Below the pieces are notes generated by a model. That model was not told where the DNA came from. It saw only the letters and a list, made by a program, of their open reading frames with translations, and did no database searches. From Candidatus Tumulicola sp. (GTDB taxonomy: Bacteria; Vulcanimicrobiota; Vulcanimicrobiia; Vulcanimicrobiales; Vulcanimicrobiaceae), in assembly GCA_036490475.1 (NCBI GenBank), contig DASXDT010000005.1, forward strand, positions 62,001 to 126,000: a DNA stretch of 64,000 nucleotides. Reading direction: 5' to 3'. Made by a program: the position numbers and the translations under genes. Shown piece after piece: positions 22,369 to 26,722 of the stretch; the stretch's first letter is position 1, and the number at the start of each line of letters is the position of its first letter.

Positions 22369-22896
22369 ATGCTGCGAGGCAATTCGCTCGACGTCGACCG
22401 GCGCGCCGCAATCGACGCGGGCATCGCCATGCGCGGCGGCATTGCGAACTGGCGTGTCTCGCCGGACGTCGACCGCGCGTATGCGCTGGTCGAGTTACCC
22501 GACGAAGGAGTTACGGCCGCAATCGCAACCGATGCGTCGTTCACCGAGAGCGCGCCCATCATTGCGTTGGCTGTTTACCCTACCGTTGCCGAAGCCTTGC
22601 CGTCCCTGATCGAGGTGCTGAACGGACCCGGGCGTCCGTCGGGGATCATTGGATGCAGTGCCTCGGGCGCGGCGGCCGTGCTCGAGTGGGACCTCGACCG
22701 AACGCCTGCTACCTTGGTGCTCGATCTGATCGACACCGAACTCGACCGCTTCCACAGCGGCCGCCGTACCGAGCTGCTCACGCCGCTCACCGAAACGTGG
22801 CTGGCCAAAATCGCGGCCGATGGGCTGCAATGTCCCGAGATCGCACCGGACCGAATTCTGGAGACGCTCGTAGCGAAGGCTGGACTCGATGTTTGA
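22369..22896 (+). CDS. unknown protein coupled to cdaA
   Basis: 175 residues from the ATG at 22369; the open frame upstream is antisense to rsgA. It overlaps cdaA by 8 bases (ATGTTTGA), so translation is coupled. The sequence is mostly alternating helix and strand (VDRAYALVELPDEGVTAAIATD; ASGAAAVLEWDLDRTPATLVLDLIDTEL) without signal peptide or membrane segment. I recognise no family. The position ahead of cdaA-cdaR-glmM makes a role in c-di-AMP or cell-wall precursor control possible, but that is only context. Confidence 0.75.
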   Translation: MLRGNSLDVDRRAAIDAGIAMRGGIANWRVSPDVDRAYALVELPDEGVTAAIATDASFTESAPIIALAVYPTVAEALPSLIEVLNGPGRPSGIIGCSASGAAAVLEWDLDRTPATLVLDLIDTELDRFHSGRRTELLTPLTETWLAKIAADGLQCPEIAPDRILETLVAKAGLDV

Positions 22897-23782
22897 GACG
22901 CTGCGATCGTACATCGGCATCACCGATCTGCTCGACATCGCCGTCACCGGCGTGCTGGTGTATTATTTGCTGCTGCTGATTCGCGGTACGCGAGCGGTGC
23001 AAATTCTCATGGGCATCATCGTGCTGTTAGCGATTCTCGGCATCGCTAACGTCTTGCACTTATATCTACTCGTTACGATTCTGCAGCTGGTGGTGGTCGG
23101 CGCCGCCGTCACGATTCCGATCGTCTTTCAACCCGAGTTGCGGCGCGCGCTCGAGCAGATCGGTCGCGGCGGCGTGTTTCGGATAGACGCCGACGATCCG
23201 CTGTCGCGCGTCGTTTCGCGCCCCGAAGATCGCGCGCTCGTCCTTCTCGCTCGTGCCGCGTTTCTGCTGTCGCGTAACAAGATCGGCGCGCTGATCGCGG
23301 TAGAACAGCACAGCGGCCTCAAAGAATTCTGCGAAACCGGAACGCAGCTCGACGCAGAGCTGACGGTCGAACTGCTGCTGACGATCTTCACGCCTCGTTC
23401 GCCGCTACACGACGGTGCGGTGATCGTGCACGACAACCGCATCGTCGCAGCCGGCTGCTTCTTGCCGTTAGCCGAACATTCGTTTACGGCGCGTGTCGGC
23501 ACGCGCCACCGCGCGGCGATCGGGTTGAGCGAGCAAACCGACGCCGTCGTCATCATCGTTTCCGAAGAGAGCGGCGGCGTATCCATCGCCCGCGACGGCA
23601 AATTAACGCGCCCGGTGGAAGAAGAACAGCGCCTGGCCAAAATGTTGATGGCCGTTACGCGGCCCGCACGTCGCGATCGGCGCTCGCCCAACGATCTCGT
23701 TTCGCATTTACGTTCGCGCCTGTCATCGCGCCGCGTGCGCGAGGCCCCACATGCAGATCATCCGCAAGAACTTCACTCTTAA
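22889..23782 (+). CDS. cdaA: membrane diadenylate cyclase CdaA
   Basis: Makes c-di-AMP from two ATP. 297 residues: three N-terminal membrane helices (about 15-33, 37-54, 58-79), then the DAC domain with the catalytic DGA motif at residues 175-177 (LHDGAVIV) and the RHR motif at 206-208 (GTRHRAAIG). The C-terminal Arg-rich tail is longer than usual. Operon order orf-cdaA-cdaR-glmM is the conserved arrangement known from Firmicutes, in which CdaR and GlmM modulate the cyclase. It overlaps cdaR by 32 bases. Confidence 0.96.
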   Translation: MFETLRSYIGITDLLDIAVTGVLVYYLLLLIRGTRAVQILMGIIVLLAILGIANVLHLYLLVTILQLVVVGAAVTIPIVFQPELRRALEQIGRGGVFRIDADDPLSRVVSRPEDRALVLLARAAFLLSRNKIGALIAVEQHSGLKEFCETGTQLDAELTVELLLTIFTPRSPLHDGAVIVHDNRIVAAGCFLPLAEHSFTARVGTRHRAAIGLSEQTDAVVIIVSEESGGVSIARDGKLTRPVEEEQRLAKMLMAVTRPARRDRRSPNDLVSHLRSRLSSRRVREAPHADHPQELHS

Positions 23783-24422
23783 AGTTCTGGCGCTGACGCT
23801 GGCGATCGTCGGCTGGGCGTACGTGCGATTCGCGACCAACCCGGTCGTGGCGACCGCACGTTTCGATCAGCAAATGTCGGTTCCGATCACGAGCGTTAAT
23901 CTCACCGCCGGGTACGTCGCGCACTTCACCGACCGCGCGGCCGTCGTCACGGTCGCATCCCGTCGTGGCGAAGCCGCGATCAAGCCCGAAGAAATTAAAG
24001 CCGTGCTGGATCTCGCCGGAAAAGGCGCCGGCGTCTACAACGTGCCGGTCGCATTGGTAGCGCCGCAGATCGTCGTGCAGAGTTTGAGCCCGGCGTCGGT
24101 GACGTTGACGATCGAAAAAATAGAGTCGCGCGACTTTCCGTTGGCCGTTCATTACGTCGGGGATCTCAAGAACGTCGTGGTTGCCGGGACGCAACTCAAG
24201 CCGTCGATCGTCGCGATACAGGGCACGACCACCGCGCTGGAACAAGTCGCCGCGGTGCACGCCGATATCACCCTGCCCGAACAAGCCCGATCCGTAGACG
24301 AGATGGTCCGGCCGGTTCCGATCAACGCGGCCGGAACCGAAGTGCTCGGTCTCCAGGTTGCCCCCGACCTGGTGCGCGTTCGGCTGCGGCTGACGCCCGG
24401 CACGGGACAAGCGCCTCGATGA
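23751..24422 (+). CDS. cdaR: YbbR-domain CdaA regulator CdaR
   Basis: 223 residues with one N-terminal membrane anchor (FTLKVLALTLAIVGWAYVRF) and an extracytoplasmic part of about two to three YbbR repeats, visible as recurring strand pairs ending in V-x-(L/V)-x-(L/V/I). In characterised systems CdaR binds and modulates CdaA from outside the membrane. The ATG at 23751 overlaps cdaA and the TGA overlaps the glmM ATG (ATGA), so the trio is tightly coupled. Confidence 0.9.
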   Translation: MQIIRKNFTLKVLALTLAIVGWAYVRFATNPVVATARFDQQMSVPITSVNLTAGYVAHFTDRAAVVTVASRRGEAAIKPEEIKAVLDLAGKGAGVYNVPVALVAPQIVVQSLSPASVTLTIEKIESRDFPLAVHYVGDLKNVVVAGTQLKPSIVAIQGTTTALEQVAAVHADITLPEQARSVDEMVRPVPINAAGTEVLGLQVAPDLVRVRLRLTPGTGQAPR

Positions 24423-25765
24423 GCCGCCTGTTCGGCACCGACGGCATCCGGGGCGTCGCCAATGAGGACCTGACGCCGGAGCTGGCCTTTGCCGTCGGTC
24501 GCGCCGCTGCTACCGTGCTGGTGGCCGAGGCCAACGGCCGCCCAATCGTCGTCGGTCGAGATACCCGCTGTTCGGGTACCATGCTCGAAGCCGCGATCGT
24601 GGCCGGCATCACGTCCGCCGGTTGTGATACGGTATCACTCGGCATCGTCCCCACGCCGGCCGTCGCGTGCGTCACTCGCCACGAAGGCGCCGCCGCAGGC
24701 GTCATGATCAGTGCGTCGCACAATCCGGTGCCGGACAACGGGATCAAATTCTTCGGTGCCGATGGGTTCAAACTGAGCGACGCGCTCGAAGACACGATCG
24801 AGGCGGCCATGACGGGCGGCTACGGCGCACGCCCAACCGGAACCGGCGTCGGCGTGGCACGAACGGCTGTCAACTTAGGTCGCTGGTACTACGCGCAGTT
24901 GTACGAAGGCGCGGCCGACCTGAGCGGAATGCGGGTGATCGTCGACGGCGCGTATGGCGCGGCGTATGCGATCGCGCCCTATGCGTTGCGCAAGCTCGGC
25001 GCCGACGTCACCGAACTGCATTGCGACAACGACGGTACGCGCATTAACGTCGACTGCGGTGCGACGCACATGGAATCGCTTGAGGGCGCCGTTCGCGAAC
25101 GAATCGCCGCAGGCGAGCAAAACGTGGTGGGCGTCGCGTTCGATGGCGACGCCGATCGTGCGTTGTTCGTCGACGAAGAAGGCTGTCGCTTAAGCGGCGA
25201 TCACGTGATGTACGCGCTCGCGACGGCATTGCACGATGCGGGAACGCTACCCGGCGACACGATCGTCGGAACGGTCATGAGCAACATCGGCTTCGAGCGT
25301 GCGTTGCAAGCGCGCGGCATCGCGCTCGAACGCACCGCCGTTGGCGACCGCTACGTGTTGGAGCGCATGCGCGAAGGCGGCTTCGTCTTAGGCGGCGAGC
25401 AGTCCGGACACATCATCGATTTGCTCACGAACACCACCGGCGACGGCCCGATGACGGCCGTCACGTTACTCGGCGTTGCGGCACGCGCGGGCGTCCGTTT
25501 GCACGATCTCGCGCGCGAAGTCGTGATCGCGCCACAGTTATTGGTGAACGTGAAGACGCGCTCCAAAGATGTGCTGCAGCGCGAACCCGTCCGCCGTGCG
25601 ATCGCAGAGGCCGAAGCGCGTTTGGGAAAAGACGGGCGCCTCTTGGTGCGTCCGTCCGGAACCGAGCCGCTGGTTCGAGTGATGGCCGAGGGTAGCGAGC
25701 GATCGCTGGTCGATGACGTCGTCGCGAGGGTCGTCGATGTGATTGAAAGGGAGATTAGAGACTAG
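24419..25765 (+). CDS. glmM: phosphoglucosamine mutase
   Basis: Interconverts glucosamine-6-phosphate and glucosamine-1-phosphate for UDP-GlcNAc synthesis. 448 residues, full length. Catalytic phosphoserine S100 in MISASHNP, the magnesium loop DGDADR, sugar-binding GGEQSGHI, and phosphate-binding RPSGTEPLVRVM are all present. It starts at the ATG overlapping cdaR. It uses the product of GlmS, encoded at 47951-49804 in another operon. In Firmicutes GlmM also inhibits CdaA directly; the shared operon makes that plausible here. Confidence 0.97.
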   Translation: MSRLFGTDGIRGVANEDLTPELAFAVGRAAATVLVAEANGRPIVVGRDTRCSGTMLEAAIVAGITSAGCDTVSLGIVPTPAVACVTRHEGAAAGVMISASHNPVPDNGIKFFGADGFKLSDALEDTIEAAMTGGYGARPTGTGVGVARTAVNLGRWYYAQLYEGAADLSGMRVIVDGAYGAAYAIAPYALRKLGADVTELHCDNDGTRINVDCGATHMESLEGAVRERIAAGEQNVVGVAFDGDADRALFVDEEGCRLSGDHVMYALATALHDAGTLPGDTIVGTVMSNIGFERALQARGIALERTAVGDRYVLERMREGGFVLGGEQSGHIIDLLTNTTGDGPMTAVTLLGVAARAGVRLHDLAREVVIAPQLLVNVKTRSKDVLQREPVRRAIAEAEARLGKDGRLLVRPSGTEPLVRVMAEGSERSLVDDVVARVVDVIEREIRD

Positions 25766-25835
25766 ACAGAAAGCCAACCAGCGTCATCGTCCGGCAAGTA
25801 ACAGCGCCGGTTCGAATGACGTTACGCCTGCACAA

Positions 25836-25956
25836 GATCACTGAATCGGGTCCCAGCGAGGATCCGAGCGGGGGACTCTCTGGTAGGGGTGAATGAGCCG
25901 GTCGGCTCTAGGGCGACTCTTTCCGTCCGAACCCGTCAACTAACCTCGCAAGTGTC
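25836..25956 (+). ncRNA. ydaO/yuaA-type c-di-AMP riboswitch
   Basis: The conserved blocks of the ydaO class occur in order: GATCCGAGCGGGGGACTC, then GGTAGGGGTGAAT, then CTAGGGCGACTC, then TCCGAACCCGTCAACTAACC, followed by CTCGCAAGTG. The ends can pair (CACT 25839-25842 with AGTG 25951-25954). It begins 71 bases after the glmM stop and ends just before the ribosome binding site of an NlpC/P60 hydrolase gene, a classic target of this riboswitch. The ligand c-di-AMP is made by CdaA two genes upstream. ydaO elements are usually OFF switches. No terminator hairpin is obvious, so control may act on translation. Confidence 0.9.
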
Positions 25957-25978
25957 GTCAAAGAGAGGTATCTATTTC

Positions 25979-26593
25979 TTGCGTCACGCGTTAGCTGCCG
26001 GAGCGTTCGCCCTTTCGATTGCCGCAACGGCCGGGTTCGCTCAAGCTCATACCCAGCAAAATTCTTCTACAATCGCGTTCAGTGCCCCGTCCGCGACGAC
26101 GAGCCAGCGTGCCGTTAGTCCAGACGTCGCCGAGTGGACCCAGCGCCTGGTGATTACTACACCAGCACGTCATTCGGCCAGCTTTGGCCGGTTCGCGGGT
26201 GGCATCTTAGCCCGCACCTCTAAGATCGCAACCCTGCTCACGCACAGCGCCCTGCGCTTTTTGGGAACGCCGTACGTCTTCGGCGGTACTACCGCGGCCG
26301 GTTTCGACTGCTCGGCGTTCGTGCAGCACGTGTTCGGCATGGCCGGGATCGCGTTGCCGCGCACGGCCGACGCGCAATACGACGTCGGCAAGCCGGCCGT
26401 CGGCGGACCGCGCCCGGGCGACCTCGTGTTCTTTCAAACCTACACCGAAGGCGTATCGCACGTCGGCATCTACCTTGGACACGGCAAGTTCGTGCACGCC
26501 AGCTCGAGCCACGGCGTCATGGTAAGCCAGCTTTCGGAATCGTATTGGTCCTCGCGCTATCTCGGCGCAAAGCGACTCGTCGCAACGCGTTAG
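25979..26593 (+). CDS. NlpC/P60 cell-wall hydrolase
   Basis: I start at the TTG at 25979, preceded by GAGAGG at about 10 bases, because the longer frame from GTG 25889 would begin inside the riboswitch aptamer. The 204-residue product opens with a signal peptide (RHALAAGAFALSIAATAGFAQA) and carries a C-terminal NlpC/P60 domain: YVFGGTTAAGFDCSAFVQ with the catalytic Cys, VSHVGIYLG with the catalytic His, and HASSSHGV for the third polar residue. Such enzymes cut the gamma-D-Glu to diamino-acid bond in stem peptides. Control by c-di-AMP links hydrolysis to turgor and wall precursor supply. Confidence 0.92.
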   Translation: MRHALAAGAFALSIAATAGFAQAHTQQNSSTIAFSAPSATTSQRAVSPDVAEWTQRLVITTPARHSASFGRFAGGILARTSKIATLLTHSALRFLGTPYVFGGTTAAGFDCSAFVQHVFGMAGIALPRTADAQYDVGKPAVGGPRPGDLVFFQTYTEGVSHVGIYLGHGKFVHASSSHGVMVSQLSESYWSSRYLGAKRLVATR

Positions 26594-26650: not shown

Positions 26651-26722
26651 TGGGGTGTAGCCAAGCGGTAAGGCAGTGGACTTTGACTCCGCCATGCGTT
26701 GGTTCGAATCCAGCCACCCCAG
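26651..26722 (+). tRNA. tRNA-Gln (anticodon TTG)
   Basis: Acceptor stem TGGGGTG / CACCCCA, D arm GCCAAGCGGTAAGGC, anticodon stem GTGGA / TCCGC with loop CTTTGAC, giving anticodon TTG, and a T arm GGTTCGAATCC. The discriminator is G at 26722, as expected for Gln. CCA is not encoded. An intrinsic terminator follows at 26734-26756. Confidence 0.95.

Follow-up and report, generated by a model that had tools for sequence, protein, structure and literature searches.

Gene arrangement at the cyclase locus

The window, meaning the whole 64,000-nt stretch of Candidatus Tumulicola DNA that was analysed, contains on its forward strand the gene order cdaA-cdaR-glmM-[aptamer]-nlpC/P60. The features, with their supporting matches, are:

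22889-23782, + strand: cdaA, membrane diadenylate cyclase; TIGR00159 equivalog, 232.8 bits (cut-off 188.8), with PF02457 and CdaA_N
23751-24422, + strand: cdaR (YbbR), presumed CdaA regulator; PF07949, 27.5 bits (cut-off 22.3)
24419-25765, + strand: glmM, phosphoglucosamine mutase; TIGR01455 equivalog, 522.2 bits (cut-off 447.55)
25781-25822, + strand: hairpin between glmM and the aptamer; segment energy -19.2 kcal/mol
25829-25970, + strand: c-di-AMP (ydaO) riboswitch, Rfam extent; RF00379, 88.9 bits, and covariation
25979-26593, + strand: nlpC/P60 peptidoglycan hydrolase gene, TTG start; PF00877, 116.1 bits; signal-peptide-like N-terminus

The CdaA equivalog, the YbbR protein and the GlmM equivalog, encoded in sequence, constitute a cyclase module in which cdaR overlaps both of its neighbors. 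CdaA, in which the DGA and RHR motifs can be read, is the only match to PF02457 (DAC) in the genome. Likewise, the hydrolase behind the aptamer is the only PF00877 match genome-wide; its best solved relative is the LytE endopeptidase domain (8i2f, E 1.9e-30). The initial annotation had located cdaA two genes upstream of the aptamer and described ligand synthesis, regulators and RNA sensor as joined within about 4 kb. This description holds, with cdaR and glmM lying in between and a measured extent of 3.7 kb (22889-26593).

Elsewhere in the genome, a DHH-DHHA1 protein resembling NrnA/DhhP scores below its NCBIfam cut-off and may, tentatively, be a c-di-AMP phosphodiesterase. The genome also contains an Omp85 gene, in agreement with a diderm cell envelope. 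A tRNA gene follows nlpC at 26651-26722, with the anticodon UUG (Gln) as judged by eye.

The hairpin at 25781-25822 was ruled out as an intrinsic terminator as it lacks a U-run. Within the window's own family, its position before the aptamer is kept but its sequence is not (mean z -1.77 over 56 genomes, with -0.33 in a control taken from glmM coding sequence). A promoter scan between glmM and the aptamer, addressing the sigma-70-like type, returned no match.

Identity and pairing of the aptamer

Scanning the whole window against Rfam 15 with cmscan yielded two matches, one tRNA and RF00379 (c-di-AMP, ydaO/yuaA). The latter extends from 25829 to 25970 on the + strand and over model positions 1-134 of 134, with 88.9 bits (E 1.9e-19) against a gathering score of 38 bits, and it is the single RF00379 copy in this genome. 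The following elements were assigned within and directly downstream of the aptamer:

25839-25842 pairing with 25951-25954, + strand: P1 of the ydaO aptamer; Rfam pairing
25917-25922, + strand: pseudoknot 5' strand CUCUUU in a hairpin loop; complementary to 25960-25965
25960-25965, + strand: pseudoknot 3' strand AAAGAG; shares one base with the Shine-Dalgarno sequence
25965-25969, + strand: Shine-Dalgarno sequence GAGGU; 9 nt 5' of the start codon

For a covariation test, 63 of the 78 aptamers collected from 98 Vulcanimicrobiota genomes were aligned with MAFFT. Standard pairs occupy 95.0% of the pair cells in these 63 sequences if the Rfam pairing and the pseudoknot are considered together, and two-sided changes occur at 15 pairs. 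Such changes were detected in six of the seven helices, P1 and the pseudoknot included. Sliding the partners by a single column lowers pairing to about 57%, and none of 500 shuffles matched the real alignment on any pairing measure. The nested minimum-energy fold of the aptamer region is the ydaO fold; the fold energy is unremarkable compared with shuffles (z 0.44) and energy alone is uninformative as evidence.

The ydaO blocks that the initial annotation had recognized between glmM and the NlpC/P60 gene are thus recovered over the full model length, the proposed Infernal check with the ydaO-yuaA model gives a score well above gathering, and the blocks do form the ydaO pairing. The extent proposed there, 25836-25956, covers the aptamer but omits the pseudoknot tail. 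Based on the covariance model match and the compensating changes, the element is a genuine ydaO-class riboswitch in the leader of the NlpC/P60 gene. The ligand of this class was reportedly identified in a paper of 2013.

The pseudoknot, the Shine-Dalgarno sequence and the level of control

For 65 distinct loop-tail pairs, pairing was best in the native combination: tails were exchanged between sequences, and 0 of 2000 swaps reached an equal value. In the MAFFT alignment the pseudoknot, helix 7, is 78% paired, with poorly kept outer pairs and two-sided changes at three of its six pairs. Most homologs use GAAAGA for this pseudoknot, which reaches just the first one or two bases of the Shine-Dalgarno sequence; occlusion of the latter may therefore come about sterically and not through base pairing.

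The distance from the pseudoknot to the start codon is 13 nt and that from the end of the Rfam match to the TTG is 8 nt, so that pseudoknot, Shine-Dalgarno sequence and start codon all lie within ~20 nt. No terminator-like site was predicted near the aptamer, and the 13-nt gap leaves no room for one. This compact arrangement lacking a terminator favors translational control. The same riboswitch could instead act on transcription, through intrinsic or Rho-dependent termination or through pausing. There are precedents, both described in PMC9960051: termination underlies the B. subtilis ydaO/kimA switch, and the S. coelicolor riboswitch gave terminated transcripts in vitro. We consider this unlikely here, though, as no terminator-like site was predicted near the aptamer, the start codon follows the end of the Rfam match after only 8 nt, and the would-be terminator tail is the Shine-Dalgarno sequence itself in nearly all homologs.

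Conservation of the arrangement in Vulcanimicrobiota

The phylum Vulcanimicrobiota is equivalent to Ca. Eremiobacterota, and its families f1 (to which the window belongs), f2 and f3 make up the class considered here. We identified ydaO elements in 70 of the 98 genomes of the phylum, 78 aptamers in total, of which 65 have nlpC downstream by homology. In 56 genomes from f1-f3, a single contig carries cdaA, glmM and nlpC in this order. Family f1 has 48 aptamers within the full cdaA-glmM-nlpC order and five further ones with glmM and nlpC on sequence stretches that end before cdaA. The aptamer lies at a median distance of 133 nt after the aligned glmM end, with 1.7-2.1 kb in four genomes (G004, G008, G038, G070), while in G017 glmM is near the aptamer and cdaA-cdaR lie about 1 kb further off. 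Because the full order also occurs in the remaining families of this class, the presence of the aptamer is likely ancestral, and the cdaA-cdaR-glmM-aptamer-nlpC arrangement, found across three families, is likely old.

In three genomes (G011, G021, G031), aptamer and nlpC lie together with no glmM upstream; in G011, the contig also carries an intact cdaA-cdaR-glmM cluster at a distance of ~14 kb. As the two stay together in these genomes, the aptamer belongs to nlpC. This bears on the idea that the element is not an nlpC leader but a 3' feedback element acting on cdaA-cdaR-glmM via mRNA stability or readthrough. The short median distance from glmM, the lack of a sigma-70-like promoter in between and the hairpin preceding the aptamer would suit such a role. 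However, the split loci keep the aptamer with nlpC and not with glmM, and extra copies precede unrelated genes (kdpA, alanine racemase, SLT transglycosylase), which leaves the idea with a very small probability.

For 13 of the 78 aptamers, nlpC was not matched downstream; one of these (G072) is cut by a contig end. The remaining 12 lie before genes for glycosyltransferases, secreted PF04185 phosphoesterases, a Laminin_G_3 protein, KdpA, an alanine racemase, an SLT transglycosylase and further proteins that look secreted. The kinds of targets known for this class, wall enzymes and ion transport, are represented by NlpC/P60 here and by kdpA and SLT in relatives.

Some further details of these loci were recorded. 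In f3, extra ydaO elements (L064, L065, L060, L035, L066, L044, L095) lie before genes for secreted or lipoprotein-like proteins, among them three PF04185 phosphoesterases and one Laminin_G_3 protein; to our knowledge, such targets are not familiar from the ydaO literature. Elsewhere in the phylum, ydaO elements lie before kdpA and before the genes of an alanine racemase and an SLT transglycosylase (L032, L059, L081). Two f1 genomes have a second ydaO before a glycosyltransferase gene, assigned by Pfam in L074 and by N-terminus similarity in L070. The f3 hydrolases (L043, L062, L237, L239, L240) show, by eye, a LysM-like stretch, e.g. VVSGDSLWTIAQRYDVS, before the NlpC/P60 domain, which is absent from the window's hydrolase.

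Joint absence of cyclase and aptamer

Five genomes of the class are without any DAC-domain match (G065, G066, G067, G075, G078), four of which are 96-97% complete, and none of the five has the aptamer (0/5). In G065, G066, G075 and G078, glmM and nlpC are still neighbors, while cdaA and cdaR are gone and no aptamer lies between the two genes; G067 has its glmM at the end of a contig. A search with filters off found no aptamer remnants above noise in the cyclase-less species. The joint absence of cyclase and aptamer points to c-di-AMP as the ligand. Since G066 is placed apart from the other four genomes in the GlmM tree (node support 0.966 and 0.725, from a single protein), there may have been two independent losses of cyclase and aptamer.

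Conversely, seven class genomes possess a DAC domain with no Rfam ydaO match, and contig ends account for six of them. In five (G002, G015, G057, G063, G077) the contig stops before the expected place of the aptamer, and G052 has an aptamer truncated where its contig stops, with a 34.6-bit partial match. Contig ends do not account for G023 (L214), a member of the same family, in which cdaA-cdaR-glmM is followed by ~1.4 kb without aptamer or nlpC. In one genome (G036) the aptamer is present without a DAC match; the sequence stretch in question ends in cdaR and the cdaA position is not covered. In the other families of the phylum a DAC domain without ydaO is common, and the dependence is therefore one-way, with the cyclase not requiring a ydaO sensor.

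A real aptamer fold with a ligand other than c-di-AMP, for instance ATP, which was once proposed as the ydaO ligand, is a similarly slight and marginally weaker prospect than the 3' feedback element. Variants could in principle shift specificity, and the ligand assignment here is derived from sequence. Against another ligand stand the conserved blocks, which fit the c-di-AMP model over its full length, and the five cyclase-less genomes without aptamer, in four of which the target gene is still at its usual position.

Cyclase loci of other lineages

We scanned 80 cdaA loci from named genomes with a model built from the 63 phylum aptamers and detected the aptamer in 28, once incompletely (L117), all belonging to Eremiobacterota/Vulcanimicrobiota or to a bacterium close to them. 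As our own model was possibly biased, Rfam itself was also run on L150-L190 and L147-L148, and no ydaO was found in these loci. All but one (L172) of the 41 loci L150-L190 come from other lineages, nearly all from Bacillota, and an aptamer flanking cdaA was detected in 0 of these 40 in flanks of up to 6 kb, although 10 of 20 of these other-lineage genomes have ydaO elsewhere, including Propionispora, a Negativicute. Among the lineages sampled, adjacency is thus a trait of this one.

The initial annotation had considered a ydaO element notable in a diderm. Given ydaO in 70 of 98 genomes of the phylum and in Propionispora, with the Negativicutes being diderm as well, mere presence has precedent and is less unusual than was assumed; the notable feature, judged from the genomes compared, is the conserved adjacency of the cyclase operon and its predicted sensor.

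A different RNA was found in 13 of the other-lineage loci (L150, L153, L154, L155, L158, L164, L165, L166, L170, L177, L178, L186, L188), namely the glmS ribozyme, which senses glucosamine-6-phosphate and belongs to glmS. It lies 3' of cdaA in 11 of the 13, mostly ~3.2 kb after the cdaA start, and on the other side in L154 and L158. The ~3.2 kb slot is where glmM would end, an expected position, as glmM was not annotated one by one.

Start codon of the hydrolase gene

Start codons were compared for the aptamers followed by an nlpC homolog, and 64 of these 65 could be scored. In 62 of the 64, the gene starts with TTG behind a Shine-Dalgarno sequence and encodes a signal-peptide-like N-terminus, and in 59 of the 64 there is an in-frame stop inside the aptamer. 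The GTG at 25889 therefore lies inside the RNA and is a wrong start, as had been proposed when the start was moved to the TTG at 25979. That the conserved blocks are coding sequence of a longer hydrolase starting at GTG 25889, a frame that is indeed open in the window, was rejected on the homolog stops and the conserved TTG start, and the changes in this region preserve RNA pairs, which makes this possibility negligible.

Proposed mechanism

We propose, with a probability of about 0.86, a c-di-AMP riboswitch behind cdaA-cdaR-glmM that switches nlpC/P60 off at translation. The proposal builds on the observed aptamer identity, pairing, Shine-Dalgarno position, synteny and joint loss with the cyclase. 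That c-di-AMP binds, that it turns the gene off, that it does so at translation, and any tie to the CdaA inhibition by GlmM or CdaR known from Bacillota are inferences. Control of a wall hydrolase, predicted in the initial annotation, gains support from the model match, the conserved blocks, the pseudoknot, the Shine-Dalgarno position and the joint loss.

Direction and level of control were deduced from the nlpC case of C. glutamicum together with the anatomy found here. The C. glutamicum nlpC gene (cg2402) is preceded by RSnlpC, a c-di-AMP OFF switch that lowers the protein but not the transcript and most likely acts translationally; a pseudoknot onto the ribosome-binding site was suggested in that study (PMC9960051). 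The window has the same translational OFF anatomy, with no terminator and with GAGGU directly at the pseudoknot, and a translational OFF switch is the likeliest mechanism on these grounds.

In the proposed sequence of events, CdaA would produce c-di-AMP, and at high levels the aptamer would be bound and P1 and the pseudoknot CUCUUU/AAAGAG stabilized. The stabilized pseudoknot would pin the Shine-Dalgarno GAGGU stretch, prevent ribosomes from starting at TTG 25979 and so keep the hydrolase off. At low c-di-AMP, the tail would be released and the hydrolase translated. In Bacillota, CdaR and GlmM restrain CdaA, according to literature cited in PMC12974146. If this restraint holds here, the wall-precursor module would set the c-di-AMP level and c-di-AMP would decide on hydrolase synthesis.

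More tentatively, and with the odds somewhat against it, cdaA-cdaR-glmM, the riboswitch and the sole NlpC/P60 gene could share one mRNA, in which the sensor would gate the translation of the last gene only, perhaps aided by the hairpin. If true, this would be a self-contained circuit of synthase, two regulators, RNA sensor and the only NlpC/P60 hydrolase.

Relation to known systems

The riboswitch class, the pseudoknot and NlpC/P60 as a target are already known. New, as far as the genomes compared indicate, are the conserved genomic place beside the cyclase operon, in 56 genomes of three families, and the joint loss. A literature search that covered few subscription papers found no published report of cyclase-aptamer synteny or co-loss, nor, with the same coverage, a publication joining Eremiobacterota with a riboswitch or c-di-AMP. 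The arrangement would connect c-di-AMP with wall hydrolysis in a phylum that is largely uncultured, and sensor and synthase have stayed adjacent in several families. The cyclase-less species that retain glmM-nlpC and have no aptamer can be viewed as natural deletion controls, which speak for c-di-AMP as the ligand.

The ydaO/kimA switch of B. subtilis and the kdpFABC switch of B. thuringiensis belong to the same aptamer class but control potassium uptake at the transcriptional level, in contrast to a wall hydrolase with no terminator here (PMC9960051, PMC6488665). In the ydaO crystal construct 4QLM/4QLN (PMC5393176), the loop CUCCUUCG and the tail CGAAGGAG can form the same pseudoknot as CUCUUU/AAAGAG; its sequence differs from the one here by compensating changes. 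The glmS ribozyme near cdaA in Bacillota (RF00234) is likewise a metabolite-sensing RNA at the expected post-glmM position, whereas the RNA class found here senses the product of CdaA and leads the hydrolase gene. The post-glmM slot may thus have been used repeatedly for the control of wall metabolism by RNA. The ydaO switch of S. coelicolor rpfA has, as described in PMC9960051, a wall-related target and no canonical terminator, as here; the enzyme family and the genomic place are different. Closest is RSnlpC, which shares with the present element the Rfam class, an NlpC/P60 wall peptidase as target, the lack of a canonical terminator and a proposed pseudoknot at the ribosome-binding site (PMC9960051). 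In C. glutamicum, however, the cyclase is DisA, encoded in an operon with radA, whereas here, in another phylum, the sensor lies two genes after CdaA.
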